This document shows, in pieces, positions 5,244 to 40,291 of a stretch of 41,056 nucleotides of DNA (positions are counted from its first letter, which is position 1; every line of letters starts with the position of its first letter). A program made the position numbers and the translations under genes. The notes beneath the pieces were generated by a model. That model saw nothing but the letters and a program-made list of their open reading frames with translations. It did not search any database and had not been told where the DNA came from. Source of the stretch: a virus; IMG/VR virus record IMGVR_UViG_3300007351_000029, positions 1-41,056 of that record. One strand, given 5' to 3'.

Positions 5244-8200
5244 ATGACAATGGACCTTAGTGGGATAGTTGCCCCGGTTACTTCTATAAGTAAACTGATG
5301 TCAGGTAATCTTATTGGGGGCTCGTATCTTAAGGATATAGATGATTACTTCAATGAAAAGCTTGATGAAGCCTCGGGGACTTGGGACTCTATTAGTACTG
5401 CACTGGGGTGGAGGCCCGCCCCAATCAGGGCAGGTATAGATAAACTGTCTGAGATTCCTGTTGTAGGTCGTCCATTAGCCTTTGGCGCTCAGGCAGTCAC
5501 TGACCCTGCCAACGTGATCCCTGCTGCTGGTCTTGCCAAGTTCGGGCCTAAGATCTCCACTGTACTTCGTGGGGCCAACGAGGTACCTATTCTCGACCTT
5601 ATCCGCAATAAGCAATTAGGTTCGGCTGCTGTACAGGCAGGGCGTCGTACTGCCGCCAACATCGTCGAGCCCATTGGCTCTACCCCAGGAGAAGCCTTCC
5701 GTAATGAGCTTCTACTAGGAGCCGCAGGTCAGGCTGCCTATAACGAAGCCGAAGCTCGTGGCGCCGATATGCCAGTGGCGTTTGGTTCCAGCGTAGCTGC
5801 CGGTGGCCTAGCTATAATTTCGGCCAACCTTATTCGCAACAGTATCCGCGAGGGCATCAAGAATGGTGCCTGGAACACTTTTACCCGCCCTGGCGGTATC
5901 AAGATGGGCACCTTTGAGGCCTATTCTCACGGCGAAGGTTATGAAATCTGGGGGCCAGATGGTACACCTGCTAGTCTTGAAGTAGGCACCATTGTTACCG
6001 CAAGGGAAGCTATAGCTGAAACTGATCAAGCTTTACTGGACGGCTTCGTTGACTTTGTTAATACCCATTTGTATCAGGGAACCGATTATACCTACTATCA
6101 ACGCTACAATGCCGTAGATGTAAATGGTTTTCCTGACCATGAGATTAGTGATGCTATCCATGCTTGGTCAGGTATGAATGCCTACCCTATTAGAGACGCC
6201 ATTGAAAAGGGCAACAGATTCGGGCAAAAACTATACCAGCACGGTGATCTCCTACGCCAATACCTTAAGTCCATCAGTCCCGACGGTAAGACTATCACCC
6301 TTTACCGTGGTGAAAAGCATCTGATTGAGCTCAAGGCTCAACAGGCCAATGAGTATGTTAGACGTGCCTATAAGAGAGCCCTACAAAAGAATCCGAACGC
6401 TACCCTAAGTGAGCGCAAGCGAATTCTTGCCGACCTTAAGAGTATTGTTACAGACCCTTACCATCGTGAAAATCTTACTCAGTCTAAGTTCTTCAAGCCT
6501 CAAGTAATTCAGTCCTACAGCCTTAGCCCTAAAGTTGCCGCTGACTTTGGTTCAACTACAGTACCTGAACATATAAGATTTGGGGCTGGTATCGACGTGG
6601 ACTATGACCTTACTCGCATCGCCCGTAGACAGGTTGCTATTGAGGATGTAGTAACGGGACTGCCCGACTTTAATCACAAGGAGTATGAGCTACTTGTATT
6701 AAGTCGTCCCCAACTAGAGCCTAAGGTTCTCCAGGCCCTTACTTCACCTGAATCCATGCCTATACCACAAAGTTATGCTGAACTAAGTTGGGAGCAACTT
6801 GGGCTCAACCCTGATGATATTAGTTTCCTCGCTAAGTTTGCTGACGACAAGGGCTACGACTACCAGGAACTTTGGCAGAAGGCATCTACCTATATCGGTG
6901 GGGGTAATCTAAGTGACTCAGAGTTACAAGGTTTACTTCAATTAGGTAGGGACTACTTTGACTTTATGGAGTGGCTACGTGCCGCCGAGCAGAAGGCTTT
7001 TCAGTCGGGTATACAGCAAAAGCTCAAGAATACCTACGGTTTTGAGTCCTATCTGGGAAACGTTGCTGCGCTAAACTCAAAGGAAAGTCAGGCTTTCCAG
7101 AGTGGTGTTCAGGATAAACTCTCTGTATCTAACTTAGCGACAGCCCTAATGCAAGCTCTCAAAGAGGCCGAAGGTGGATCTAAGTTAGGTGTCGTCGAAG
7201 GCGAAGCTGGTCTCCCCAACATCAGCGGCGCCCAAACCCGCCAGAACATTCAAAGTGAGGATAGACGCAATTCTATCCTTACTCGTCTCCGTGCCTTACC
7301 CGACAACGAGGTAGTCCGTGAGGCGCTCAGCTACGGCCTCGAGCTCGTCGACAACATGGACGAGTTACGTACCCTCGTCGCAACCTACATTGACCAGGAC
7401 CTCAGTAGTCCCCCTAACCCCATCAATATCCTTCGTGAATACGAGGGAGCGTTTATGGAGCTTTCCCGCAGTGCCCTTGAGGCTGCGGCTGAAAAGCGTG
7501 GCCTACCCACCCAGGGTTCCCAGAAGGAGCTAGTCTCCCGCATCATCGACAGCTTCATTGACGAGGCAGGCCTTGTACCTGCGGAGGTTAAGCTTAACAC
7601 TCCCCCACGCGCCAACTTTACTCACCCAACTTTAAGTAAGCCCTCCACTGAGCTCGTCCACGACCGTGAACTTATTGCACAAGAAATAGATGCCGTCCAG
7701 CTTCCTCCTAGTTTCCAGACTATCCTGGACGACCTCCAGCGAGCCTACCCTTATACTGATGAACTATTTGGTCCTGAAGCTGGCTATCGCCAACCAGACG
7801 GGAAAGGTGGGTATGTAACGTCTGCTACTCAACTTGGAGAAGCTCCCCCAAGAGTACCTACAGCCGAAGATATCCTTGCTAACGAACGCGTCTATGCTGA
7901 AGGGATTACGCCGACAGGTTCGGCGATGGCTAATCCTCCACGTAATCCTCTAAACTTTGAGCCTGAAAATACGGCCTTATATCCCCCTCAATCGGCACCA
8001 GTTAGATTTGGGGAGACTCCTCCTAGTATTCCTACCTCTCAAGACTTACTCAGACGTGAGGTAGAGTACGCTGAGGGCGTTACTAAGCCCGGCACAGCTA
8101 TGAATATACCTACCCCAGGAGGACCCACAAAGTTTCCTGAGGAAAAGTTCCCTTACGCCCCTGATATGTTTGGGGCCGAAGGTTCAGGCGGCAGCGGTGT

Positions 8201-10196
8201 TCCACCACACTGGACTGACACGGGCGCCACTCAACCTGGAATGGATGGGGTACCTCAACCTCCCAAGAAGCTGTATAACGGTAAGGATGCCCTTACTGCT
8301 TTCAACCAGCTAATCAAGTCTATGTGGGCAACGGCTGACGCCAGTGGCTTCGGTATCCAGGCCCTTATGCCTATGGCACGTCTAGCCCTCAGTGGAAACA
8401 CTGACGCCATAAAGACCATTTTTAAGGACTCCTACCTCCATATGCTAGACGAAAAGCATATGACAGCTTTCCTTTCCCGCCATAATCAGGTCTGGGGGCA
8501 GATTGACCCTAGACTTAACATCGAGTGGCTTTCCAAGAATGGGCTGCAAGTATCTTCCACGACTCTAGACAGCGACATATCCATTACTGGCCAGTTAGCC
8601 ACTAAGCCCATCATTGCCCAAAGTCAGCGCTTATTCCACGCTACTGGTGACCTTGCCCGTATAGGGATTATACTTAACGAGTTCAACTTACGTGGTGGTA
8701 CCCGCCTAACCGACGACCAGTTAAAGCAAATCATCCACAGTGCCAATCGCATCAGTGGTCACAGCGACACTCAAATCCTAGGCCCCAACAGTGGGCTGTT
8801 CCTTTTCGCACCTAGGTTCTTCACCTCCCAAATAGAAACTGTAGTCAAGGCTTTCGAGATAGGCACTATCGAGGGTGACATCGCTCGCAAGTCCATCGTA
8901 TCCCTTTTGGGCATAGCCGCAGCCCTGACTTTCGGTGCCAACATAGCCACCGGCGAGTATTCCCACGAGATGTGGGATCCTCGAAGCTCCAACTTTATGC
9001 GCATCAAGAACATAGGCGGACAGGACATCTCCCTCCTTGCCACCTGGGACAGCCTTATCCGTGGCGTGGCTCGTATGGCCCAAGACCCACAGGAAGGTAC
9101 AGCATTCTTTCTTCGTAGTAAGTCCTCCCCTATAGTATCCATCACTTGGGACCTTCTTACAGGTAAGGACTTCATGGGAGACGAGGTTACAGCAGCTAAC
9201 TTTATCCCCAACCTTATCACCCCATTCTCCTACAAAGACCTAGGTTCCCAGCCTATGTGGACAGTTCCCCTTAACGTCCTCGGCGTTAAGTCCTCCCCAC
9301 AAACTCCTGGGGAAGTCCTCGAAGCTCGTATGGAGGCCCAGGGGTTAGACCCTAATGACCCCCTTGACCGTCGTAACTATCTAGCATCCCACCCTGAGGA
9401 CTACCCCAAGGGTACTCGTGAGGATACTATCTATCGTGATTCAGTTCGTGGAGATATAAAGCTTCGTACCGCTATGAATGACCAGCGAGCCCTCACTAAC
9501 CAAATCACCTTAGACGAGTGGCGTGAGACTCGCAAGACATTGCTCCGCGAACAGCGTATCCGTCTCGACACCATCTTCCGCTCCCGTGAACCTCGTGCAC
9601 CTAAAAACCAACAGGAGTCTTGGATTAACTCCTACTTCCAGTTATTCGAGTCTAACAGTGACCCTGTTACAGGGGACATCGTTAGTGATAGTTTCGACAA
9701 AGCCCTAGTTGAGTGGATATCAGTCAACGGAGAGAGTGCCTATAACTACGTTCAGGACTACATGCTAGTCGGTCGGAGCCCACTGGAGACAGCTTACCTT
9801 AACAACCTAAACCAGTTAAAGAAACTCAACTACTTCAACATGCCAAAGCTTCGCGGTATGGTATCAGGCGTAGACGAATCCGTCATTACTGACCTTCGTC
9901 GTAGAGTTTCAGCTGAACGTTCCTTAAATCCTGTCCTCGCCAAGATGTCCTTCCAGCAGGCCGCTTTCCAGGTCCTCCGGGGATACCCCGCCAGTGTCCG
10001 CATGGACGTAGGCAATGCTGGCTTAGCTCAGTTTCGTAACCCCAAAGTCGCCCAGATGGAGGCGTTATACCCTCACCTATTCACCTGGTTTAACCCCAAT
10101 ATGTACTACCAACACTACGCTCAAATAACAGGTTCACCTGTTGACCCCTCCACTATGCTTTCGATGGAACAGAATCAGTTATTGGGGGCGTCATAA
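5244..10196 (+). CDS. Giant virion protein with ADP-ribosyltransferase and SAP-like domains
   Basis: 1650 aa, the largest protein in the genome. Residues about 345-490 carry the three elements of the R-S-E class of ADP-ribosyltransferases: R355 in LYRGE, the S426/S428 pair in SYSLSP, and the E480-x-E482 pair in KEYELLV. A SAP-like helix-extended-helix with a GLPTQGSQKELVSRI core lies at about 741-775 and may bind DNA. Hydrophobic stretches lie near 175-195 and 1210-1230. The C-terminal third resembles the large polyvalent or internal proteins of podoviruses. Its place between the virion lysozyme and the scaffold suggests it is packaged and ejected with the DNA, like the T4 head-borne ADP-ribosyltransferase Alt. 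The enzyme call rests on motif order only, and the target is unknown. Confidence 0.68.
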   Translation: MTMDLSGIVAPVTSISKLMSGNLIGGSYLKDIDDYFNEKLDEASGTWDSISTALGWRPAPIRAGIDKLSEIPVVGRPLAFGAQAVTDPANVIPAAGLAKFGPKISTVLRGANEVPILDLIRNKQLGSAAVQAGRRTAANIVEPIGSTPGEAFRNELLLGAAGQAAYNEAEARGADMPVAFGSSVAAGGLAIISANLIRNSIREGIKNGAWNTFTRPGGIKMGTFEAYSHGEGYEIWGPDGTPASLEVGTIVTAREAIAETDQALLDGFVDFVNTHLYQGTDYTYYQRYNAVDVNGFPDHEISDAIHAWSGMNAYPIRDAIEKGNRFGQKLYQHGDLLRQYLKSISPDGKTITLYRGEKHLIELKAQQANEYVRRAYKRALQKNPNATLSERKRILADLKSIVTDPYHRENLTQSKFFKPQVIQSYSLSPKVAADFGSTTVPEHIRFGAGIDVDYDLTRIARRQVAIEDVVTGLPDFNHKEYELLVLSRPQLEPKVLQALTSPESMPIPQSYAELSWEQLGLNPDDISFLAKFADDKGYDYQELWQKASTYIGGGNLSDSELQGLLQLGRDYFDFMEWLRAAEQKAFQSGIQQKLKNTYGFESYLGNVAALNSKESQAFQSGVQDKLSVSNLATALMQALKEAEGGSKLGVVEGEAGLPNISGAQTRQNIQSEDRRNSILTRLRALPDNEVVREALSYGLELVDNMDELRTLVATYIDQDLSSPPNPINILREYEGAFMELSRSALEAAAEKRGLPTQGSQKELVSRIIDSFIDEAGLVPAEVKLNTPPRANFTHPTLSKPSTELVHDRELIAQEIDAVQLPPSFQTILDDLQRAYPYTDELFGPEAGYRQPDGKGGYVTSATQLGEAPPRVPTAEDILANERVYAEGITPTGSAMANPPRNPLNFEPENTALYPPQSAPVRFGETPPSIPTSQDLLRREVEYAEGVTKPGTAMNIPTPGGPTKFPEEKFPYAPDMFGAEGSGGSGVPPHWTDTGATQPGMDGVPQPPKKLYNGKDALTAFNQLIKSMWATADASGFGIQALMPMARLALSGNTDAIKTIFKDSYLHMLDEKHMTAFLSRHNQVWGQIDPRLNIEWLSKNGLQVSSTTLDSDISITGQLATKPIIAQSQRLFHATGDLARIGIILNEFNLRGGTRLTDDQLKQIIHSANRISGHSDTQILGPNSGLFLFAPRFFTSQIETVVKAFEIGTIEGDIARKSIVSLLGIAAALTFGANIATGEYSHEMWDPRSSNFMRIKNIGGQDISLLATWDSLIRGVARMAQDPQEGTAFFLRSKSSPIVSITWDLLTGKDFMGDEVTAANFIPNLITPFSYKDLGSQPMWTVPLNVLGVKSSPQTPGEVLEARMEAQGLDPNDPLDRRNYLASHPEDYPKGTREDTIYRDSVRGDIKLRTAMNDQRALTNQITLDEWRETRKTLLREQRIRLDTIFRSREPRAPKNQQESWINSYFQLFESNSDPVTGDIVSDSFDKALVEWISVNGESAYNYVQDYMLVGRSPLETAYLNNLNQLKKLNYFNMPKLRGMVSGVDESVITDLRRRVSAERSLNPVLAKMSFQQAAFQVLRGYPASVRMDVGNAGLAQFRNPKVAQMEALYPHLFTWFNPNMYYQHYAQITGSPVDPSTMLSMEQNQLLGAS

Positions 10197-10207
10197 TATG
10201 AGGTAAA

Positions 10208-10246
10208 TGATACACATTGCAGTCCTATCCACCTCTCTCATATCAT
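10208..10246 (+). promoter_or_regulatory. Possible late promoter before scaffold and coat genes
   Basis: This 69-base gap between the giant virion gene and the scaffold holds TTGCAG (10217-10222), 18 bases, then TATCAT (10241-10246), a weak sigma70-like pair. The twelve bases at 10208-10219 (TGATACACATTG) match bases just before the TerS start region (39675-39686) and include the half-site GATACA of the four-copy operator module. A strong Shine-Dalgarno AAGGAGA follows before GTG 10266. Confidence 0.35.
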
Positions 10247-27784: not shown

Positions 27785-27870
27785 TGGTGCCGAAGGAGGG
27801 GGTCGAACCCTCATACCATTACTGGCGGCTGATTTTAAGTCAGCTGTGTCTGCCATTCCACCACTTCGGC
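27785..27870 (-). tRNA. tRNA-Leu (anticodon UAA)
   Basis: 86 nt including encoded CCA. The acceptor stem GCCGAAG pairs with CTTCGGC. The anticodon arm CTGA-CTTAAAA-TCAG gives UAA, reading UUA. A long variable arm (CGCCAGTAATGGT region) marks it as a class II tRNA, and the T arm GAGGG-TTCGACC-CCCTC is complete. UUA codons are common in the phage genes, so it probably supplies a codon that is rare in the host. Confidence 0.95.
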
Positions 27871-27871
27871 T

Positions 27872-27947
27872 TGGTACGACGGACAGGATTCGAACCTGTA
27901 ACCGCTGACTTATAAGGTCAGTGCTCTAACCGTTGAGCTACCGTCGC
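27872..27947 (-). tRNA. tRNA-Ile (anticodon UAU)
   Basis: 76 nt including encoded CCA. The acceptor GCGACGG pairs with CCGTCGT (the first pair is G-U), the D arm is GCTC/GAGC, the anticodon arm CTGAC-CTTATAA-GTCAG gives UAU, and the T arm is ACAGG-TTCGAAT-CCTGT. It reads AUA directly and so needs no lysidine. AUA is frequent in the phage genes. It lies one base from tRNA-Leu. Confidence 0.93.
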
Positions 27948-32767: not shown

Positions 32768-32796
32768 ATTGTAACAAAACCATATCATCCTGTCAA
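32768..32796 (-). promoter_or_regulatory. Sigma70-like promoter of the lysis/replication operon
   Basis: Minus strand: TTGACA (32796-32791), 17-base spacer, TACAAT (32773-32768). This is near-consensus, with an operator palindrome at the start site, and the nucleotidyltransferase ATG 34 bases further on. It would drive the tightly coupled minus-strand genes down to the polymerase. Confidence 0.8.
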
Positions 32797-32810: not shown

Positions 32811-32861
32811 TGTATCATCAAATATGAATCATACATAAAGATATAACAATGGGAGATACAA
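32811..32861 (-). promoter_or_regulatory. Copy C of the TTGTATC...TGATGATACA module
   Basis: Minus strand: TTGTATCT at 32861-32854, a -10-like TATATC 16 bases from its start, and TTCATATTTGATGATACA at 32828-32811. The left and right boxes are 33 bases apart, as in copies B and D. It lies upstream of the TTGACA promoter. See the linked finding on the four-copy module. Confidence 0.65.
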
Positions 32862-32864
32862 GTA

Positions 32865-33779
32865 TTATACCTTATTTCCTTCTTCGGGAGTCGCTTCATT
32901 AACACTCGTAACCCGCAGGGCGCGACGGGCGATGACTTCGGCGTGATTCGGGTCGGTCAGGTCTCGAATGTGCACCAGAGCCTCGCGCAGACGGACGTTT
33001 TCGTCGTACAACTGATTCCACCGATGCGTTATCGACATCATCAGCGCCGCCGTATCGGGTTCAGCCTCAGCACGAATGGCCTCCTCTACGGCCAGCGGGA
33101 CATCGGCCCGAACAGTCCAGCCAGCACCACGGCCCTTCCAGCGGGCGAATGTCTCGCCAAGCACGACCTGCTCGGTGCGCGACCATCCATCGAGTTGCGC
33201 GGAGCAGAATTGGCACTCGCACTGCTCATCCTCTGAGTAGTCACCGCAGTTGCAATCCGCACGGGAACAGCACGCGCAAGGGCACTCGTCCTCTACGGGC
33301 TCAGGAGCGGGCTTAGGGACACCGAGCGGACGATAGAACACTTGCAGGTACTCGGGCCTGAATGGCGTCCCCTCATTGACCAGCGGCTGGAACAGGGCTC
33401 GCAGCGCAGCGTCGGACTCGCTCACCGGCTCAGACTGGTACGGGTGGCAGGACATATCCGCGTCGTGGACGTCTGGAATGTGGCCGGAATGCCGCCCGTC
33501 CCTCGCCTCGTTCGGCTGTCCACACCGCTCCCCGTTGAAGACGGCTTCACAGCGAGGATCGAGGGCGTTGGGGTCAGCGGGGTAGTTCTTGGCGAAGTCG
33601 CGCTTCGGCACCTCCGCCATTGTTGGGCGTTCCTCGGAGGAGGATACTGGTTCCCGCTCGGCCTCGGCTTTGAGGGCGCGTGCCCGCCATGCGCGACGTT
33701 CGGCCATGAGCGCACCTATCCAAACTTTCAATTCATCTGGTTCCAGTGCATCAATATTGAAAGTTTCAAAGTTATTCAT
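32865..33779 (-). CDS. GC-rich cassette protein with Cys cluster
   Basis: 304 aa from ATG 33779, chosen for its TAATG overlap with the upstream gene; a longer frame to 33878 would lie inside that gene. Codons are GC-rich, unlike neighbours. Features: a helical N-terminal segment (LMAERRAWRARALKAEAE), a Cys/His group (CEAVFNGERCGQ, about 76-86), a dense Cys cluster (about 165-193: CPCACCSRADCNCGD and CECQFC), and a coiled-coil C-terminus. It may bind zinc and nucleic acid. I do not recognise the family. Its base composition suggests recent transfer from a GC-rich phage or host. Confidence 0.7.
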   Translation of the reverse strand: MNNFETFNIDALEPDELKVWIGALMAERRAWRARALKAEAEREPVSSSEERPTMAEVPKRDFAKNYPADPNALDPRCEAVFNGERCGQPNEARDGRHSGHIPDVHDADMSCHPYQSEPVSESDAALRALFQPLVNEGTPFRPEYLQVFYRPLGVPKPAPEPVEDECPCACCSRADCNCGDYSEDEQCECQFCSAQLDGWSRTEQVVLGETFARWKGRGAGWTVRADVPLAVEEAIRAEAEPDTAALMMSITHRWNQLYDENVRLREALVHIRDLTDPNHAEVIARRALRVTSVNEATPEEGNKV

Positions 33780-34519
33780 TATGACTTCTCCTGTAGCGCA
33801 TCGAGCGCATGCCGCATGTTTTCTACCACTTCCCTCAGCGGCTCCGCCCGAGCCTCGTACCTGTCTCCCCACCCCCACCCGTTCGGGAAGCGGAGCTGAA
33901 CGTTGAACGCTGCCTCCACCAGTGCTTTCACCTTCTCGTCCTGCAACCGTGCCTCCTTCTCGGCATCCGCTCCCTGTGCCCGCAGGCGGCTTACCTCGTT
34001 GCAGAACGCGACCAGCATCCGGCCCGCGTCATCGAGGTTTCCACGGTGAAACTCCACCACCGTTTCCCAGCGGAGCGACCCGTCAGGCTCGGCGGGTGGG
34101 GCGGGGCGTGTCCCCTCAGCACGCAGGGCGGCACGTAGAGCCTCGAACTCCTTGCGCGGGATGTAGCCGTAACCCACCTTGTCGAAGGTTGTGAGGATTG
34201 CCCTCGCCGCTTCCTCGGCGCTCGGTGCTCCGCTTCCTGCTGTAGCCGCGGCGGGCACGAAGTTGTGTGAAATGTTGAGCGCGCCATGCCCGTCGTAGCG
34301 GATGAAGCAACCGCCGAAATGCTCTGACCAGTGCTGACACCGATCGCTCGGGAGCGGTGCGCCCTCCTGCGGGTCAGTCCGACGCGCCGAGAAGTCGTGC
34401 TTGGCCGCATCCTTTAACCACTGCGGGCCGCTTTCAATGCTTCGCTTGGCACTCTCCACTTGGTCAATCACCCACTGTTTGGTCACGCCCTCCTGCGGGT
34501 CTGGGGTGGGATTAGTCAT
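33779..34519 (-). CDS. GC-rich cassette protein, unknown
   Basis: 246 aa, ATG overlapping the stop of the small Cys-rich gene (ATGA). Two copies of DPQEG occur in the N-terminal 55 residues, and DRCQHWSEHFGGCFIRYDGH follows at about 60-78. Later come helices (EEAARAILTTFDKVGYG and VSRLRAQGADAEKEARLQDE). It is GC-rich like its cassette neighbours. It has no signal peptide. A role in host takeover is possible, but nothing recognisable supports one. Confidence 0.7.
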   Translation of the reverse strand: MTNPTPDPQEGVTKQWVIDQVESAKRSIESGPQWLKDAAKHDFSARRTDPQEGAPLPSDRCQHWSEHFGGCFIRYDGHGALNISHNFVPAAATAGSGAPSAEEAARAILTTFDKVGYGYIPRKEFEALRAALRAEGTRPAPPAEPDGSLRWETVVEFHRGNLDDAGRMLVAFCNEVSRLRAQGADAEKEARLQDEKVKALVEAAFNVQLRFPNGWGWGDRYEARAEPLREVVENMRHALDALQEKS

Positions 34520-34659
34520 CGCTGCGGCCTTCCGATTCGCTCGCCTGCGCTATCCATGTGATTGCCCATGAGGTATTCGTTGCAGCGGCGCTTCCCGCGC
34601 GTCTCCACCGGAACGTTGCAGGGACACGGCAGCGGGCACTCGCAGTAGATCGGGCTCAC
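34516..34659 (-). CDS. 47-aa Cys-rich protein, first in GC-rich cassette
   Basis: GTG start with GGAGGA upstream; the stop overlaps the next ATG. It has C6, C8, C12, C14 and C26 (CECPLPCPC pattern), then a basic tail (GERIGRPQR). It is probably zinc-binding. The strong ribosome site and the coupling support real coding. Composition matches the two genes downstream. Confidence 0.6.
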   Translation of the reverse strand: MSPIYCECPLPCPCNVPVETRGKRRCNEYLMGNHMDSAGERIGRPQR

Positions 34660-34683
34660 TCTCGTCCTCCAATACGAATATGG

Positions 34684-34857
34684 CTAAAGTTCATCAGGTG
34701 CATTTTTAACCTTCACAATAATCTCATGCACTAGCTTCAGGTCAAATAGTTGAGGTCTACTCCCCAAACTAATAGACCTTTCCGCCATGCCGCTATAGGC
34801 CCAGAGCACACGCTCAAGCTTTTTCTGCTGTTCCTCAGTAAGTACAATGAACTTCAT
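34684..34857 (-). CDS. 57-aa small protein
   Basis: ATG 34857, overlapping the stop of the preceding micropeptide, with GGGAGAGAATAGGGA upstream. It is helical, with a charged N-terminus (LTEEQQKKLERVLWAYSG), no Cys and no membrane segment. AT-richer than the cassette that follows. Function unknown. Confidence 0.6.
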   Translation of the reverse strand: MKFIVLTEEQQKKLERVLWAYSGMAERSISLGSRPQLFDLKLVHEIIVKVKNAPDEL

Positions 34858-34952
34858 TCCCTATTCTCTCCCTCAAGCAGGGTGCTGACAATAGCACCAC
34901 CCACGCCTGTGATAATCCCCAATAGATATACCAGCCCAAGCAGATCAGCCAA
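34854..34952 (-). CDS. 32-aa membrane micropeptide
   Basis: TTG 34952 with GAGAGG about seven bases upstream. One hydrophobic helix (LLGLVYLLGIITGVGGAIV), then an acidic tail. The stop overlaps the next ATG. A possible holin-like or membrane-regulatory peptide. Confidence 0.5.
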   Translation of the reverse strand: MADLLGLVYLLGIITGVGGAIVSTLLEGENRE

Positions 34953-35010
34953 GTACTACCTCTCTAAACACTTGAAGTACCACACTTGACATAATGACAA
35001 GGTATAGCAC
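34945..35010 (-). CDS. Possible 21-aa membrane micropeptide
   Basis: GTG 35010 to the stop at 34945, overlapping the start of the next micropeptide by 8 bases. Hydrophobic (LYLVIMSSVVLQVF) with a short polar tail. The frame can be extended upstream with the rare start ATT. No good ribosome site for the GTG, so this is tentative. Confidence 0.3.
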   Translation of the reverse strand: MLYLVIMSSVVLQVFREVVLG

Positions 35011-35028
35011 ATCAACAATCTTGATTGG

Positions 35029-35259
35029 TTATCTCCCGCGGAACTGGATAATCTTATATCGCAGCCAGCGGGCAGCCTGTACCTGGCGGGGTGGGAAGGG
35101 ATACAGCAGCACTCCATCACCCTCAAAGGCCACGTGGGTTAGCAACTCCAACAGCTCCTTATGATTCTCCCTAGTGAGAACCCTAATAGTATAGGGCTTA
35201 AAGGGAGGCGGTTCCTTCACCGTTGCGGGGGTGACATCATAGTTACGCTTCCGAAACAT
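35029..35259 (-). CDS. Small basic protein
   Basis: 76 aa, overlapping the upstream gene by 17 bases. The N-terminus is basic (RKRNYD), and a Pro-rich linker (EPPPFKPYT) leads to a small beta/alpha segment with IRVLTRENHKELLELL. It may be a small regulator or nucleic-acid-binding protein. Function unknown. Confidence 0.65.
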   Translation of the reverse strand: MFRKRNYDVTPATVKEPPPFKPYTIRVLTRENHKELLELLTHVAFEGDGVLLYPFPPRQVQAARWLRYKIIQFRGR

Positions 35260-35461
35260 CTTCCATCTCCTCTACAACTGTCCCCGGGAGTCGCTTCACT
35301 ACACATACTGACTTGAGGATAACCAGCTCATCGGCTCGGTATGCGCTACGAGTTTCTTGGGAGATAATCCTTTCAGCTTCTTTGAGTGCCTCCTCAAACG
35401 TATCATGCTTGTATGAAGGCACATGCCCAGTCTGGTTCCAGACGAAGTAAAAAGTTTTCAC
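35243..35461 (-). CDS. Small protein with beta-alpha fold
   Basis: 72 aa. A beta strand (MKTFYFVWNQ) and a charged helix (DTFEEALKEAERIISQ) are followed by a strand with an acidic tail (EEMEDVSEA). It overlaps its neighbours by 4 and 17 bases, so it is part of a coupled set. Function unknown. Confidence 0.65.
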   Translation of the reverse strand: MKTFYFVWNQTGHVPSYKHDTFEEALKEAERIISQETRSAYRADELVILKSVCVVKRLPGTVVEEMEDVSEA

Positions 35462-35661
35462 TGATGACTTTCCTCAATGAACCAAAGCTTATACTCAAGC
35501 CTTGCGATTTCCTTTTTGCTCTCCCCAGGACGGGACCGAATGAGCTCCAGCTGCTCCTCAATCCCCCTACGCTCACGCAATTGTTGGCGCTGTTCGGCAT
35601 CCAACCTTCGTTGGAGCTTACCCTTACCATAGATGCTAGTAGCCGAGTGATTGCCCTTCAT
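35458..35661 (-). CDS. Small coiled-coil protein
   Basis: 67 aa, rich in Arg, Gln, Glu and Leu (LQRRLDAEQRQQLRERRG, then EEQLELIRSR), a probable coiled coil with a basic N-terminus. It is coupled by overlap to its neighbours. It may oligomerise or bind nucleic acid. Function unknown. Confidence 0.65.
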   Translation of the reverse strand: MKGNHSATSIYGKGKLQRRLDAEQRQQLRERRGIEEQLELIRSRPGESKKEIARLEYKLWFIEESHQ

Positions 35662-35891
35662 TCAGGCCTCTTTCCAATAGTGACAAAATGTCCCCTAACC
35701 TTAGTCTTCACACTACAGTAACCCGTAGAGGTTAGCTTCTTCCTATGCACGGGACATATGGGGACATCTACCCACCAAGGGGCACAGCCATAGCAGCCGT
35801 CGCGCATAGTGTGGTAGAATCCGTTAGTTTCAGCATCATACCCAGGACACTTAACCCATTCAGCCTTCGCCGTGAGGACTTCCTTAGCCAT
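35658..35891 (-). CDS. Small Cys-rich protein
   Basis: 77 aa. Cys residues at about 15, 33, 36, 46 and 59 (GCYGCAPWWVDVPICPVH), with a His after the fourth, a zinc-binding set. The C-terminus is basic. It overlaps the upstream gene by 8 bases. Function unknown; one of several small zinc-type proteins in this cluster. Confidence 0.65.
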   Translation of the reverse strand: MAKEVLTAKAEWVKCPGYDAETNGFYHTMRDGCYGCAPWWVDVPICPVHRKKLTSTGYCSVKTKVRGHFVTIGKRPE

Positions 35892-36138
35892 TCGTGGCCT
35901 CCTCGGCCTGTAGTTGGGCCTTCAGTAGCATCACAGCCAGACGAAGGCTGGCTGTGACTTCAGCGTCCTTGAGTTCTATAAACAACAACTCCGCCATTTT
36001 AGCCTGAAGTTGCTCACTAAAGGGCTGGCCACCACTATCAGCGGCCCACTGGGTCTGCATACTGATAATGTCAGTAGCGCAGTCCCTGAGCGACTGGTCA
36101 ATCATCTCCATGAGTTCTTCTACAGTCTTAGCTCCCAT
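35884..36138 (-). CDS. Small helical protein
   Basis: 84 aa, almost wholly helical and acidic (VEELMEMIDQSLRDC, AKMAELLFIELKDAE). It shares one base with the upstream zinc-ribbon gene and 8 with the downstream gene. Possibly an inhibitor or adaptor. Function unknown. Confidence 0.65.
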   Translation of the reverse strand: MGAKTVEELMEMIDQSLRDCATDIISMQTQWAADSGGQPFSEQLQAKMAELLFIELKDAEVTASLRLAVMLLKAQLQAEEATNG

Positions 36139-36335
36139 TACCCTGCCCCCTCCCCTACATTAAAGGAGTCATCTCCGGCACTGTAGCTTCTCCGTGAGTA
36201 CCTAGGATAAACCACTGACGCATTGACCACTACTGGGCTAACCTCAGGGTATCCTGAGTCATCCCGAATAGTATACCCACAGCTTAAACACTCCCCTCTT
36301 AGTACCGAGCGGGAGTTGCACTTGCTACATTTCAT
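36138..36335 (-). CDS. Zinc-ribbon protein
   Basis: 65 aa. Four Cys in CSKC (3-6) and CLSC (16-19) form a zinc ribbon, followed by an unstructured Ser/Tyr/Gly-rich tail. It lies at the start of a coupled run of small genes and directly after a hairpin-rich leader, which may control it. Function unknown. Confidence 0.65.
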   Translation of the reverse strand: MKCSKCNSRSVLRGECLSCGYTIRDDSGYPEVSPVVVNASVVYPRYSRRSYSAGDDSFNVGEGAG

Positions 36336-36349
36336 TAGCTCACTTCACC

Positions 36350-36460
36350 GACCTTTCAGGTCTCCATGACGCTAGAACACCTAGCGAGAACACCCCACGA
36401 ACAGTTATGCTCGTAGGGCACTCTCGGTAGCCGTTAAGTAGCCGGGTCTTTCATTAGACC
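36350..36460 (-). other. Hairpin-rich leader before zinc-ribbon gene
   Basis: The 151-base gap between 36336 and 36486 holds three perfect short hairpins: GACCT/AGGTC with a three-base loop (36350-36362), CGCTAG/CTAGCG with a five-base loop (36370-36386), and GGTCT/AGACC (36445-36460) whose loop contains an ATG with a nearby GGGAGGAA. A possible six-codon frame starts there. It could be a structured leader or attenuator. Seen by eye; not folded. Confidence 0.4.
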
Positions 36461-36486
36461 AATTCCTCCCTAGACTAAGGTCACCG

Positions 36487-36705
36487 TTACAAGTCCTCAG
36501 ACTGGAACACAGACATACCGATGTTGTCAGCGCCACCCCGGTCAAAGTCATTCGGATAGATACTCGTTCGGCGGATAAACGCGCGGGCTTCCTCGATCTC
36601 CGAGTCCTCGACGAGGCGGATCGAGACGGGATACGTAGTGTGGTCAATGATCCGGCTGCCCGTTTCGTCCATAATCCACAACCGTACTCGCTTCTCAACG
36701 TCCAT
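36487..36705 (-). CDS. Small protein, unknown
   Basis: 72 aa, ATG after AGGGG. Mixed beta/alpha (VEKRVRLWIMDETGSRII and DSEIEEARAFIRRTSI), acidic, no Cys. A longer frame on the same strand (36405-36746) is a shadow rich in Ser and Arg. GC content is somewhat above the flanks. Function unknown. Confidence 0.62.
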   Translation of the reverse strand: MDVEKRVRLWIMDETGSRIIDHTTYPVSIRLVEDSEIEEARAFIRRTSIYPNDFDRGGADNIGMSVFQSEDL

Positions 36706-36727
36706 GATGGTCTACCCCTAGTTGCAT

Positions 36728-36796
36728 TTAGCGGTACCTCCAACACCAGTCCTCAAATCGCTTAATGACGTTCCACAGTCGAGCTATCGCTCGCAT
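36728..36796 (-). CDS. Possible 22-aa basic peptide
   Basis: ATG 36796 lies inside the end of the zinc-motif gene and the frame stops at 36728. The peptide is basic and amphipathic (MRAIARLWNVIKRFEDW). The overlap and a GGGGAATG upstream give modest support. Confidence 0.3.
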   Translation of the reverse strand: MRAIARLWNVIKRFEDWCWRYR

Positions 36797-36933
36797 TTGT
36801 GCTCATTCCCCCACTGCTGGGCATCACTCATAAACTTGAAGTACCCCGATGACCCTCCACAGTCATCACATACAGTCTGGTATGCAGTACTGGGAGTGGT
36901 GACTCCGAGGTGTGCCGTAACGACCCTAAACAT
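36784..36933 (-). CDS. 49-aa zinc-motif protein
   Basis: ATG 36933 after AAGGGGAATGTC. It contains C-x2-C (CDDC, about 22-25) and H-x-C near the end (EHKCER), a CCHC-type set. It is short but has a plausible ribosome site and residue pattern. Function unknown. Confidence 0.55.
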   Translation of the reverse strand: MFRVVTAHLGVTTPSTAYQTVCDDCGGSSGYFKFMSDAQQWGNEHKCER

Positions 36934-36947
36934 GACATTCCCCTTGG

Positions 36948-37055
36948 CTAGTCTCCCAGTTTCTCAACGAGCTTTTTCAGCTCCTCATACATATGCTCAC
37001 CACAGCACATGCCCATGATGAGCTGCAATTCGGCTATGAGTTCAGTGTTAGTCAT
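36948..37055 (-). CDS. 35-aa small helical protein
   Basis: ATG 37055 with GAAGAGAA upstream. Helical with two Cys together (MGMCCGEHM) and a charged end (EELKKLVEKLGD). Plausible but small. Confidence 0.45.
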   Translation of the reverse strand: MTNTELIAELQLIMGMCCGEHMYEELKKLVEKLGD

Positions 37056-37068
37056 GACTAGTTTCTCT

Positions 37069-37134
37069 TCAATGGAGTATACCGCCCATTGCTATTTCAT
37101 CAGCTTTTTCGGTCAGCGCATCAAGGTCATCCAT
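37069..37134 (-). CDS. 21-aa peptide behind a promoter
   Basis: ATG 37134 with AGGAG about eight bases upstream, directly downstream of the operator at 37150. Sequence MDDLDALTEKADEIAMGGIL is helical and acidic. It may be a leader peptide or a tiny protein starting the small-gene cluster. Confidence 0.42.
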   Translation of the reverse strand: MDDLDALTEKADEIAMGGILH

Positions 37135-37149
37135 AGTTAGCTCCTGTCG

Positions 37150-37176
37150 TGTCCTAATTGGAACACATTATGTCAA
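37150..37176 (-). promoter_or_regulatory. Promoter/operator of small-gene cluster
   Basis: Minus strand: TTGACATAAT (37176-37167), possibly an extended -10 (TG-A-CATAAT), then TGTTCCAATTAGGACA (37165-37150), a near copy of the operator behind the strong promoter at 32768. No good -35 is seen. The shared position relative to the start site points to one regulator for both units. Confidence 0.5.
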
Positions 37177-37284
37177 GACCCATGACAGTCGATGACACAT
37201 ATAGACATCAGGTGACACGTGATTAGGTTCACGAATCGCCTCATTTATATACGTGCCTTATCATTTAAATTCAGTAAAATGAAT

Positions 37285-37306
37285 GGGGGAGTGTCAGTCC
37301 TCCCCC
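37285..37306 (-). terminator. Intrinsic terminator after GC-rich coiled-coil gene
   Basis: A seven-pair stem GGGGGAG/CTCCCCC with an eight-base loop lies just after the stop at 37317. On the minus strand ATTCATTTT follows. It separates the coiled-coil gene from the small-gene cluster, which has its own promoter-like site. Confidence 0.7.
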
Positions 37307-37316
37307 TAGGAACCTT

Positions 37317-37934
37317 TTAGCCGAGGTCTACTTCCCGGCCATCCTTGTAGGTTCCAGTGGCACCCAGCTTCTTGGCCAGGGTCTTCACTGGCGCATCGAA
37401 GCCAGCACCAGCTGCCGCCTTCTCCAGTACCTTTTCACTGTCCTCGTGGAACGCCACGATTAGCTCCCGCGAGGTGTAGTCGGTGCCGTTGTAGTGCCAG
37501 GTAATGCTTCCCCGGCGGACACCAGTGCCACCAGTAGTGCCTCCCGACACCTTCGGCGCATTGCCAGTGACGGAGTAGGTGCCGTCCTCATTAAAGGTAA
37601 CCGAGATGCCCTTGACCCCCGCCTCTCGGGCAGCGACCAGCGCCTCCGAAATGCGAGCGTTGCGGAGCAGTTCCTCGACCTTTGCGACTGCATCGGTACG
37701 CAGTCCGGCCTTGGATTCAAACTCGGCCTTGTCCACAGCGGCGGTTGCCCGGTTGAGCGCGTCCTGTGCTGCCTTCACCTCACCAGCGGCACCCAAAAGG
37801 GCATCGAGGTTCGCTTCAGGATCAACACGGGCGGCTTCCATCTTCGCCTTTGCGGCCTCGACAGCGGTAGCCTTTTCGGCCGCCGTTGCACGCAACTGCT
37901 CCACGGTGGGGGCAGCCACAGCCTCGGAAGTCAT
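37317..37934 (-). CDS. Ala-rich coiled-coil protein with C-terminal basic domain
   Basis: 205 aa, ATG after GAGAGGA. Residues 1-110 are an Ala/Glu/Lys-rich coiled coil. Then come a Gly/Thr linker (VSGGTTGGTG) and a C-terminal module of about 65 residues with RRGSITWHYNGTDYTSRE and KTLAKKLGATG, which looks like a small beta-hairpin plus helix DNA-binding-type fold. It stands alone between its own leader and a terminator, and is GC-richer than its neighbours. It may be an abundant DNA-organising or virion protein. Function is inferred weakly. Confidence 0.68.
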   Translation of the reverse strand: MTSEAVAAPTVEQLRATAAEKATAVEAAKAKMEAARVDPEANLDALLGAAGEVKAAQDALNRATAAVDKAEFESKAGLRTDAVAKVEELLRNARISEALVAAREAGVKGISVTFNEDGTYSVTGNAPKVSGGTTGGTGVRRGSITWHYNGTDYTSRELIVAFHEDSEKVLEKAAAGAGFDAPVKTLAKKLGATGTYKDGREVDLG

Positions 37935-38309
37935 CGTTTCACCAATCCTCTCAAAATAGGGGAATGTCCCCGTTCAGTGTTGTTGCGGATATTTTACCAG
38001 GACTCACGTGGGTTAGGGTGGTATTATGTCAACTCCCGTCACATTTAACACAATCGTCAGAATCGCTGGTGGACAGTATGTGGGGTCGCCCCCGACTTGT
38101 TGTACCGTCCCTTGATGGATTGATTGTACCAAATGGCTAGCGGCTCGTCACAACATTATGTCGAGCTGGCCCAAACCTGACACTACCGTCAGACCGCGCA
38201 AATCTCACTTGACAAAACGGAGGCTCCGTGATACCCCTTGACAACAGGGAGTATAATAGGTCCCACTCAATTTTTCCTTGTTTCAAATCGTCTGGAACAT
38301 CTGTTCGCA
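37935..38309 (-). other. Long leader with repeated TTGACATAAT-like motifs
   Basis: About 375 bases upstream of the coiled-coil gene hold no convincing gene except a possible short frame (38137-38310). Minus-strand copies of TTGACATAAT occur at 38032-38023 and, as TCGACATAAT, at 38164-38155. A plus-strand TTGACA/TATAAT pair near 38245-38265 has wrong spacing (8). It may contain the promoter and operators of the coiled-coil gene. Confidence 0.4.
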
Positions 38310-38310
38310 T
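38137..38310 (-). CDS. Possible small protein
   Basis: 57 aa from ATG 38310 (an earlier ATG at 38361 lies in the next gene). The first half (MRTDVPDDLKQGKIEWDLLY) is protein-like, the rest less so. It has a GGGG-type ribosome site. It may be a leftover of the regulator cluster or a small real gene. Low confidence. Confidence 0.3.
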   Translation of the reverse strand: MRTDVPDDLKQGKIEWDLLYSLLSRGITEPPFCQVRFARSDGSVRFGPARHNVVTSR

Positions 38311-38326
38311 CCCCACAGACCATTCG

Positions 38327-38563
38327 CTATACACTCCACAGGTACACGGACGCCCCACCACCTCCTCCTGTCCTTATTACTTCACCCTTTGCATACATGG
38401 CCTGAAGTATCCCATATACCTGCGTTCGCTCCATTTCACAGTAAGATGCAATCTCATGGGCGGTCACTGGGATTTCACTTAGGGCCTCCAAAACTAATTT
38501 TCTATTTACCCTTCCTGCTACGCGAGTATTGCGTGGCTTCTTGTCTTGCCAGGACACTTTCAC
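38327..38563 (-). CDS. Winged-helix DNA-binding protein
   Basis: 78 aa, GTG start overlapping the stop of the treble-clef gene (GTGA). It has a helix-turn-helix (LVLEALSEIPVTAHEIASYC, then ERTQVYGILQAMYAKG) and a Gly-rich wing (TGGGGGAS). It is probably a regulator, a candidate for the factor that binds the four-copy module. It comes last in a three-gene unit that has copy D of the module at its promoter. Confidence 0.72.
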   Translation of the reverse strand: MKVSWQDKKPRNTRVAGRVNRKLVLEALSEIPVTAHEIASYCEMERTQVYGILQAMYAKGEVIRTGGGGGASVYLWSV

Positions 38564-38792
38564 CCCTCTCGGTCAGATATAATTCCTGGCTTATCGGATA
38601 GCTTGCTATCAGCCCTTTGCTTCGCAAGCTCCATATTGCGTCGCGGTAGCTCTGCAAGTCTTTCATCAAGGGCGCGAATCTTAGCAAGTTTCGTGGCGCC
38701 TCGTCGATTGCCTTTAGTATCTCCCACTGGAGTGGGCTCACCGACTTCCACCAGTCCTCCCCGAGGAGGAAACGTTCGTATGTGCCAGCCAA
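38502..38792 (-). CDS. Winged-helix protein, overprinted on upstream gene
   Basis: 96 aa from TTG 38792 with GGAG about seven bases upstream. The protein looks like a winged helix: LQWEILKAIDEAPRNLLRF, then YRDAIWSLRSKGLIAS, then ELYLTERGESVLAR, where the LTERG turn is typical of MarR/PadR-like regulators. It overlaps the treble-clef gene by 233 bases in a different frame and the next regulator by 62 bases. Good fold character argues that it is expressed, although the overlap is unusual. Confidence 0.55.
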   Translation of the reverse strand: MAGTYERFLLGEDWWKSVSPLQWEILKAIDEAPRNLLRFAPLMKDLQSYRDAIWSLRSKGLIASYPISQELYLTERGESVLARQEATQYSRSRKGK

Positions 38793-39354
38793 TTAGTGAC
38801 TCCAGTATAAGATTCCCGTTAGGGTCGATTGCTACTGCACCTTTAATCTCGGCCTGATATTTAGGTGTCAGCACACGTAGGAGACGGGCCACAATGCTCC
38901 TGATATCATTATAGTACCCAATGTTAGAGTACTCCACCAAACGACTTGATAGATTGTGCAGCTGCTTCTCATCCCCGCGCTGCTCGTATATCCTCAAATC
39001 GCGGTTCATGTAAAGGAGCAATGACCGCCTTCGCCTCCTAATCTCCTGGTCAGCATTGTTCCAGTCCAGCGTTTCGGACTGTGTGACAGTATCATACTTG
39101 ACCTTAGCCCAGGGCCGACCCTCACTGGTAGTCTGCTTACGCAGCTCAGCCCGCACAAACACAAACTTGGGGAAACAGTTCTCATGGAAGCGGGTCTGCC
39201 AATACTTACCCTGTTTGCTCTTATGCATCCATATGAACTGGTAGTTCCCATTAGGGATGGGTTCCAGGCACAGATGACATTTGTGTAGCTCCCCGGTTTT
39301 CTTCTGTCGGGCCAACTGGAAGGCAACGCTATAGATATATCTTTTGTTAGCCAT
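38560..39354 (-). CDS. Treble-clef zinc protein at head of regulator operon
   Basis: 264 aa from ATG 39354 with GGAGG six bases upstream; a longer frame to 39387 would run into the operator. Residues C26-x2-C29 and H57-x2-C60 (CHLC, HENC) form a treble clef near the N-terminus. The middle is helical and basic (IRRRRRSLLLYMNRDLRIY), then a beta segment (AEIKGAVAIDPNGNLI), and a charged C-terminus. The last 78 residues share DNA with a winged-helix gene in another frame. It is driven by a consensus promoter and probably acts early as a nucleic-acid-binding protein. Confidence 0.7.
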   Translation of the reverse strand: MANKRYIYSVAFQLARQKKTGELHKCHLCLEPIPNGNYQFIWMHKSKQGKYWQTRFHENCFPKFVFVRAELRKQTTSEGRPWAKVKYDTVTQSETLDWNNADQEIRRRRRSLLLYMNRDLRIYEQRGDEKQLHNLSSRLVEYSNIGYYNDIRSIVARLLRVLTPKYQAEIKGAVAIDPNGNLILESLIGWHIRTFPPRGGLVEVGEPTPVGDTKGNRRGATKLAKIRALDERLAELPRRNMELAKQRADSKLSDKPGIISDREG

Positions 39355-39363
39355 ATTCCCTCC

Positions 39364-39421
39364 TGTATCATCAATTATGAAATACACTAGTAATTATAAT
39401 ACCCCGTGATACAAATGTCAA
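39364..39421 (-). promoter_or_regulatory. Copy D of the module plus consensus sigma70 promoter
   Basis: Minus strand: TTGACA (39421-39416), 17 bases, TATAAT (39398-39393): an exact consensus promoter. The spacer contains TTGTATCA (39414-39407), and the right box TTCATAATTGATGATACA (39381-39364) covers the start region, directly before the Shine-Dalgarno. The left-to-right spacing is 33. The strong promoter with an operator over it fits an early gene under negative control. Confidence 0.82.
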
Positions 39422-39424
39422 GTT

Positions 39425-39454
39425 GACATAACAACGCCCCGCCCTCGTTATGTC
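39425..39454. repeat. Inverted repeat in control region
   Basis: GACATAAC and GTTATGTC, eight-base arms with a 14-base spacer, between the divergent promoters. The arms carry the TTGACATAA-type word that recurs at 34986, 37167, 38023 and 38155, so this may be a second operator, or paired promoter cores. GC-rich bases fill the spacer. Confidence 0.5.
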
Positions 39455-39538
39455 CAGTGACCACTCCCCTCCTATCATTATACATTGTGAAGGATTATAC
39501 AAGCCATCCTCCCTGGGTACAATATTTAGGGGCAATAC

Positions 39539-39590
39539 TTGTATCATGCCCGATTATACATATATAGTATTGTTCATATTTGATGATACA
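39539..39590 (+). promoter_or_regulatory. Copy A of the TTGTATC...TGATGATACA module
   Basis: TTGTATCA at 39539-39546, TATACA 16 bases from its start, and TTCATATTTGATGATACA at 39573-39590. The left box is 34 bases from the right box. It is followed by the highly similar copy B 91-92 bases on, so a tandem repeat of about 70 bases precedes TerS. Confidence 0.72.
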
Positions 39591-39630
39591 GTACGGTAGT
39601 TTTCCTTACTCCACATTAAGGGTGTGAAAC

Positions 39631-39681
39631 TTGTATCACCCCAGAATATACATCTATTTATTGTTCATAATTGATGATACA
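39631..39681 (+). promoter_or_regulatory. Copy B of the TTGTATC...TGATGATACA module
   Basis: TTGTATCA at 39631-39638, TATACA 16 bases from its start, and TTCATAATTGATGATACA at 39664-39681 (spacing 33). It is adjacent to the promoter-like pair before TerS. The -35 region is poor in copies A and B, suggesting that they need an activator or a different polymerase factor. Confidence 0.72.
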
Positions 39682-39683
39682 CA

Positions 39684-39712
39684 TTGACAAGTTTTCCACC
39701 TTATTATAAGTT
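39684..39712 (+). promoter_or_regulatory. Promoter-like pair before TerS
   Basis: TTGACA at 39684-39689, then TATAAG at 39705-39710 (spacer 15) or TAAGTT at 39707-39712 (spacer 17). The TerS ATG at 39719 lies 7-9 bases downstream with no Shine-Dalgarno, so a transcript starting here would be leaderless or nearly so. Longer transcripts from copies A and B would still cover the gene. Confidence 0.45.
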
Positions 39713-39718
39713 CCCAAC

Positions 39719-40291
39719 ATGGAAAATACTTCACCTGTCCCTTGGAGTGAGCGTGAAGCGGAAGAGGCTTCGGACAAGGAGCGCGAAAATACCCTGCTAT
39801 CGCGCATCCCTCTCCTTGCAGGGGACGATAAGAAGATGGAGTACCTCAGCTGGCGTGCTACTGGGTTTCCCGTAAGGCAGGCCTGCGAGCTAACTGGCAT
39901 CCGCCAGCATACGGTTAATAAGTGGCGCAACAGTGACCCCGAGTTCCGCATATTTGAGAGTGACCGACTGCCCGAGCTTCAGGCCAGGGTAGGCAAGGAC
40001 CTTTTACGGCTCGAGTTCATGAGGAACTTTAGGCTCCTTCTTCGCAAGGACGCCGAGGTTATCTGGAAAGCCACGATGACTCCCGATGAACTCACCGACA
40101 GGGAGTGGGCTTACTTCAGACAAATCCGTAAGCATTATACTCCGGGCGAGTTCCTATCACTGGAAAAAGCCCTGAATCCTGAGAAGCACAAGGAGCGTCC
40201 TCCTATCATCAGGCTGTCCTTTGGTGCCAGCGCCTCGTTGGAGCAGCTCGAGGTCATGGACGCCGAGTTCTCGGAGCTCGACAGTGCCTAA
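39719..40291 (+). CDS. terS: Terminase small subunit
   Basis: 190 aa. It lies directly before terL and overlaps its start by 8 bases. A helix-turn-helix lies at about 46-75 (WRATGFPVRQACELTGIRQ, then HTVNKWRNSDPEFR), the DNA-recognition fold of small terminases. Helices for ring formation follow (LLRLEFMRNFRLLLRKDAE), then an acidic C-terminus that would contact TerL. It recognises the packaging site and activates TerL. There is no clear Shine-Dalgarno at the ATG. Confidence 0.85.
   Translation: MENTSPVPWSEREAEEASDKERENTLLSRIPLLAGDDKKMEYLSWRATGFPVRQACELTGIRQHTVNKWRNSDPEFRIFESDRLPELQARVGKDLLRLEFMRNFRLLLRKDAEVIWKATMTPDELTDREWAYFRQIRKHYTPGEFLSLEKALNPEKHKERPPIIRLSFGASASLEQLEVMDAEFSELDSA

Follow-up and report, generated by a model that had tools for sequence, protein, structure and literature searches.

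Four copies of a rigidly built promoter/operator module in a 41-kb phage genome and their likely control by one regulator

Gene layout and the four module copies

The window, by which we mean the whole stretch of DNA that was analysed, comprises positions 1-41,056 (41,056 bp) of the IMG/VR virus record IMGVR_UViG_3300007351_000029. Its first 99 bases are identical to its last 99 bases, so the genome is probably complete. A rightward structural block is led by terS (39719..40291, plus strand), which has a weak match to phrog_4044 and no clear Shine-Dalgarno sequence, and by terL (from 40290, resuming at base 2). The leftward side extends from 39354 down to 21182 and contains genes for a 264-aa protein with a CxxC...HxxxC motif and a 78-aa winged-helix protein, many small genes, a nucleotidyltransferase-like gene, GH25 and SLT lysis genes, an AAA ATPase and a family A DNA polymerase. 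The polymerase type and the two lysis genes, GH25 and SLT, are consistent with a host that is a bacterium; adjacent tRNA-Leu(TAA) and tRNA-Ile(TAT) genes (27785-27947, minus strand) might help to name it. Among the proteins scanned with PHROGs and Pfam, which represent part of the ORFs, none was recognised as an integrase or other lysogeny product. A 1650-aa protein encoded at 5244-10196 showed a weak SAP-domain match and belongs to no PHROG family.

Four module copies, starting at 39539 and 39631 on the plus strand and at 39414 and 32861 on the minus strand, lie ahead of the main gene blocks. Two of them precede terS, the first at 39539..39590 (left box 39539-39546, TATA from 39555, right box 39573-39590) and the second at 39631..39681 (left box 39631-39638, TATA from 39647, right box 39664-39681). 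The third (39364..39414; left box from 39414, -10 TATAAT 39398-39393, right box 39381-39364) precedes the regulator operon, and the fourth (32811..32861) precedes the nucleotidyltransferase-like, lysis and replication genes. The module is 51 bp long in three copies and 52 bp in the 39539 copy. In all four the left box reads TTGTATC[A/T] and the TATA begins exactly 16 bp from the module start (position 17), while the right box, TTCATAWTTGATGATACA, is exact in every copy (18 nt, compared with 8 nt for the left box) and starts 33 bp from the module start, or 34 bp in the 39539 copy. All of these elements were present as originally predicted.

The left box shares TGTATCA with the reverse complement of the right box, such that the outer words of each module, TGTATCA and TGATACA, are inverted. 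This inversion had been described beforehand, together with a separation of about three helical turns; the words are in fact 43-44 bp apart from centre to centre, or 4.1-4.2 turns, and 36-37 bp separate their facing ends. The distance from left box to TATA is constant at 16 bp, whereas that from TATA to right box varies by 1 bp, and the invariance of the former suggests, if weakly, that recognition of the left word involves polymerase as well. The spacers have diverged, with pairs of copies having 2-4 of 8 and 3-7 of 13 bases in common, while the boxes and TATA were kept. A mobile element (MITE-like) origin of the inverted ends was rejected because the spacers differ and a target duplication is not visible. 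Two of the four copies are possibly one diverged tandem duplication, and since all four come from one genome they offer little independent evolutionary evidence.

No fifth copy emerged from a combined weight-matrix scan of the genome, in which the four modules scored 55-57 and the next entries were shifted registers or overlaps of the same sites. About 0.05 right-box matches are expected by chance even with up to three mismatches, compared with the four exact matches found. TGTATCA occurs nine times in the genome and eight of these occurrences are intergenic, against 0.57 expected; a count of eight was reached in none of 1000 resamplings. The chance of an inverted 7-mer common to the conserved 8-nt left box and 18-nt right box is small (p ∼0.002). 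The module geometry is firm: it is real, rigidly built and non-random.

Promoter elements and other sites near the modules

The 39414 copy coincides with a consensus σ70-type promoter, TTGACA-17-TATAAT (39393..39421, minus strand, 12/12), whose spacer contains the left box. This is the perfect promoter that had been ascribed to an unlocated copy 'D', and it is the only module copy with TTGACA-16/18-TATAAT, the remaining copies having the -10 core only. At the -35 position the others carry GCAATA (39539, 2/6), GTGAAA (39631, 4/6) and ATAATA (32861, 3/6), so that the claim that copies A, B and C lack a -35 holds for 39539 and 32861 but goes a little too far for 39631. The left box was discarded as a -35 element in its own right, its distance of ∼10 bp to the TATA being too short, and an archaeal TATA/BRE reading was set aside in view of the perfect -35/-10, the Shine-Dalgarno sequences and the peptidoglycan lysis genes. 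A perfect palindrome, ATGTCAA-G-TTGACAT (39415-39429), covers the -35 of the regulator promoter and adjoins the inverted repeat GACATAAC-N14-GTTATGTC (39425-39454); this may be an additional operator.

A good -35 is thus absent from three of the four copies, which would suit an activator, MotA-like or other, for which the left box stands in for the -35: the bound phage factor would recruit polymerase to the -10, and the right box would be a separate element. T4 middle promoters pair a -10 with a MotA box that replaces the -35 and lies 12 ± 1 bp above the -10 (PMC2988021), and the fixed 16 bp from left box to TATA, set beside the 1-bp variation on the other side, points in the same direction. 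However, the 39414 copy keeps a perfect -35, the module left box differs in sequence from the MotA box and ends 9 bp before the TATA, and the inverted word in the right box is left unexplained. We regard such an activator as improbable.

Intergenic TTGACA is enriched, with seven occurrences against 1.7 expected (1/1000 resamplings), and two of these hexamers lie 3 and 15 bp beyond right boxes. The one 15 bp below the 32861 module belongs to a second near-consensus promoter, TTGACA-17-TACAAT with TGn (32768..32796, minus strand, 11/12), at least 11/12 being matched by an expected ∼0.55 sites in the whole window. The other, 3 bp after the right box of the 39631 copy, begins a possible extra terS promoter, TTGACA-17-TAAGTT (39684..39712, plus strand); the TAAGTT ends 6 bp before the terS ATG and the predicted start is the ATG itself, making a leaderless terS transcript from this promoter possible. 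The enrichment and position of these hexamers would allow the modules at terS and at the lysis/replication genes to be upstream binding sites for separate promoters below them (39684, 32796), with the internal TATA as a relic. Yet the TATA occupies an identical position in all four copies despite spacer drift, the distances to the TTGACA promoters vary, and the 39539 copy is without one, which makes this arrangement distinctly improbable.

The earlier claim that the module controls all three transcription units was nevertheless overstated, given the 11/12 promoter below the 32861 module and a second recurring intergenic word, TTGACATAA(T). The exact copies of this word (34986+, 37176-, 38032- and 39423+) are all intergenic, a further copy with one mismatch lies at 38164-, and two of the four exact copies are in leftward gaps without a module; the word could be the mark of another promoter or operator class. 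A hairpin at 37306-37285 on the minus strand, with a weak T tail, could be the end of the regulator operon, in which case the genes that follow it leftward would make up an additional unit lacking the module. Among the leftward terminator-like sites listed, none lies immediately upstream of the 32861 module, and this copy may for that reason be an internal promoter. The case for the module as main control is weakened because other promoter-like sites adjoin two units, and it is probably not the only control of transcription. Three TGTCA words lie on one strand within ∼35 bp (37183-37217) of the 36747-37316 gap.

A partial right-box-like site, CATAAT ... ATGATACACATTG, precedes the scaffold-position gene (10191..10219, plus strand). 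The half-site reported at 10208 exists, and the 13-nt ATGATACACATTG that it has in common with the 39631 copy is found twice against 0.00 expected, but its right box is broken by ∼6 bp and it has neither a left box nor a correctly placed TATA. Decay or reduction of a module site may account for it.

Candidate regulators and a proposed mode of action

Exact-pattern scans of viral and genome collections revealed no comparable module, which fits a phage-specific regulator. Control by a host regulator was rejected: the 19 spaced-pattern matches in the genome contigs are close to chance (an estimated ∼11 with uniform bases, and more in AT-rich genomes) and occur one per contig in unrelated phyla; the longest right-box match among them (L081) lies inside an ORF. 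Viral sequences that match the right box (L005-L007) or the spaced pattern (L074, L075) are without partner elements and look like chance. Since no other sequence in the data searched carried the module, its regulator is more probably encoded by the phage than by the host.

Single-protein queries with the portal, MCP, zinc-motif protein and PolA, which address close relatives only, found none in the viral collection, from which very near records are possibly absent. TerL gave many relatives, mostly at 30-53% identity, and these were the only relatives found, none exceeding 53%. They lack the module, and a brief inspection of 11-mers repeated ahead of their TerL showed nothing comparable; 16 window proteins compared with these relatives gave matches only for PolA (27-30% identity) and, weakly, a methyltransferase. 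That portal, MCP and polymerase are without close relatives while TerL has many indicates either an isolated lineage or an exchanged terminase.

The first gene behind the 39414 copy (38560..39354, minus strand), with its Shine-Dalgarno sequence AGGAGG directly after the module right box, encodes the 264-aa protein with the zinc-type motif, which has no database family and whose AlphaFold model, a single-sequence prediction, was uninformative (pLDDT 52.5). The second gene of this operon (38327..38563, minus strand) encodes the 78-aa protein, which is TrmB/MarR-like with a TrmB match (E=4e-5) below the Pfam cut-off, and for which a single-sequence structure model of low confidence (pLDDT 62.6) predicts a winged-helix fold. 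The 78-aa protein is the best candidate for binding the module.

The best reading, and a likely one, is a promoter/operator module common to the four places and governed by one regulator, because the geometry was kept in four places while the spacer sequences drifted. It is supported by the coincidence of the 39414 copy with a 12/12 σ70 promoter and by the winged-helix gene in the operon behind it. We propose, with a probability of about 0.5, that the modules constitute a phage-wide promoter/operator cassette at which an early-operon DNA-binding protein autorepresses the 39414 copy and sets output elsewhere. Start sites, timing, the identity of the binder and the sign of regulation are what we infer from the sequence arrangement. 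Host RNA polymerase with a σ70-type factor would take the TATAnn box as -10, and a phage DNA-binding protein, most likely an early-operon product from behind the 39414 copy, would read the inverted TGTATCA words. With the start predicted 7 bp after the -10, the left word would span about -28 to -21 and the extended right site about +6 to +23, placing both words on nearly the same helical face and bracketing the -10 and the start.

At the 39414 copy, where -35 and -10 are both consensus, binding would most likely shut this strong regulator promoter, making autorepression likely there. The three remaining copies are without a good -35, and at these the same protein would set output by damping or by activation, although activation at these copies is purely hypothetical. 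Repression at one copy combined with activation elsewhere, as originally suggested, would be compatible with the -35 pattern. It is doubtful that one regulator uses an identical two-half-site bracket at all targets and that the presence of a -35 alone sets the sign, so that the early regulator operon would be repressed while the structural and lysis/replication promoters were activated. For a simple dimer, a separation of 43-44 bp between half-sites is unusual. With 11 more conserved bases in the right box than in the left, two proteins may take part, and these extra bases may belong to the second.

A repressor, too, would classically bind where the two sites are predicted to lie, within the spacer and immediately past the start, and the operon with the winged-helix gene is driven by the strongest promoter. 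One phage repressor might simply silence or damp all four promoters, weak -35 elements setting their basal strength and activation playing no part. Three copies look too weak to need such a repressor, however (-35 matches of 2-4/6), and its long-term role is not obvious when the proteins scanned included no recognisable integrase or lysogeny product; a plain repressor-operator set is possible but on the whole unlikely. Under the reading preferred here, in which the shared module answers to a single regulator, one phage-made switch protein probably coordinates the main gene blocks. If this is true, one compact cassette governs much of the timetable of a 41-kb phage almost without recognisable relatives, the four natural copies are a ready-made set for asking how the sign of a regulator depends on -35 quality, and the module is a sequence handle for finding the regulator of this phage and its kin.

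Comparison with known phage systems

The module represents phage gene control of a familiar kind. It fits none of the T4 middle, Cluster A stoperator or Mu C kinds, and the placement of its sites also differs from that of phi29 p4. As with T4 MotA/AsiA, the host -10 is kept and a phage box occupies the place of the -35, but the module has in addition an inverted partner after the start and one copy with a perfect -35. The T4 middle description of a -10 without a -35 is true of the 39539 and 32861 copies, doubtful for 39631 (4/6) and false for 39414, and neither MotA nor AsiA was found among the proteins scanned with PHROGs and Pfam (part of the ORFs). Cluster A mycobacteriophages have 20-30 asymmetric operator/stoperator sites, which follow the direction of transcription and lie mostly outside promoters (PMC6550527). 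Here too one short word recurs in intergenic DNA and one phage protein is expected to bind it, whereas the sites are four inverted pairs, all at a promoter-like TATA.

In phage Mu, one activator, C, serves four late promoters with non-consensus -10 and -35 elements and binds upstream of the -35 (PMC4461284). By the predicted start, the module words instead lie between -35 and -10 (∼-28 to -21) and after the start (∼+6 to +23). Such positions are compatible with a promoter-embedded element of the lambda Q kind, which together with a -10-like pause (CATAWT, in the right box) might load an antiterminator on every main transcript. The left box does lie between the -35 and -10 positions, CATAAT/CATATT of the right box falls in the early transcribed region, and lambda Q loads at a sigma-dependent pause needing a specific DNA element (PMC7171158). 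The inverted identity of the two boxes would then be a coincidence (p ∼0.002), and a Q homologue was not recognised among the proteins scanned. Lambda Q-type antitermination is also usually confined to a single late promoter, as against four copies here, and a loading site of this kind is very improbable.

The phi29 protein p4 binds upstream of its promoters, whereas the module sites bracket the -10 and the start, and a p4-like protein was not recognised among the proteins scanned in this phage. In phi29, this one phage protein represses the early promoter A2c and activates the late promoter A3 (PMC4461284). The module copies likewise differ mainly in the quality of their -35, and by this analogy phi29 p4 would be the nearest logical precedent for the idea of a regulator with dual action.
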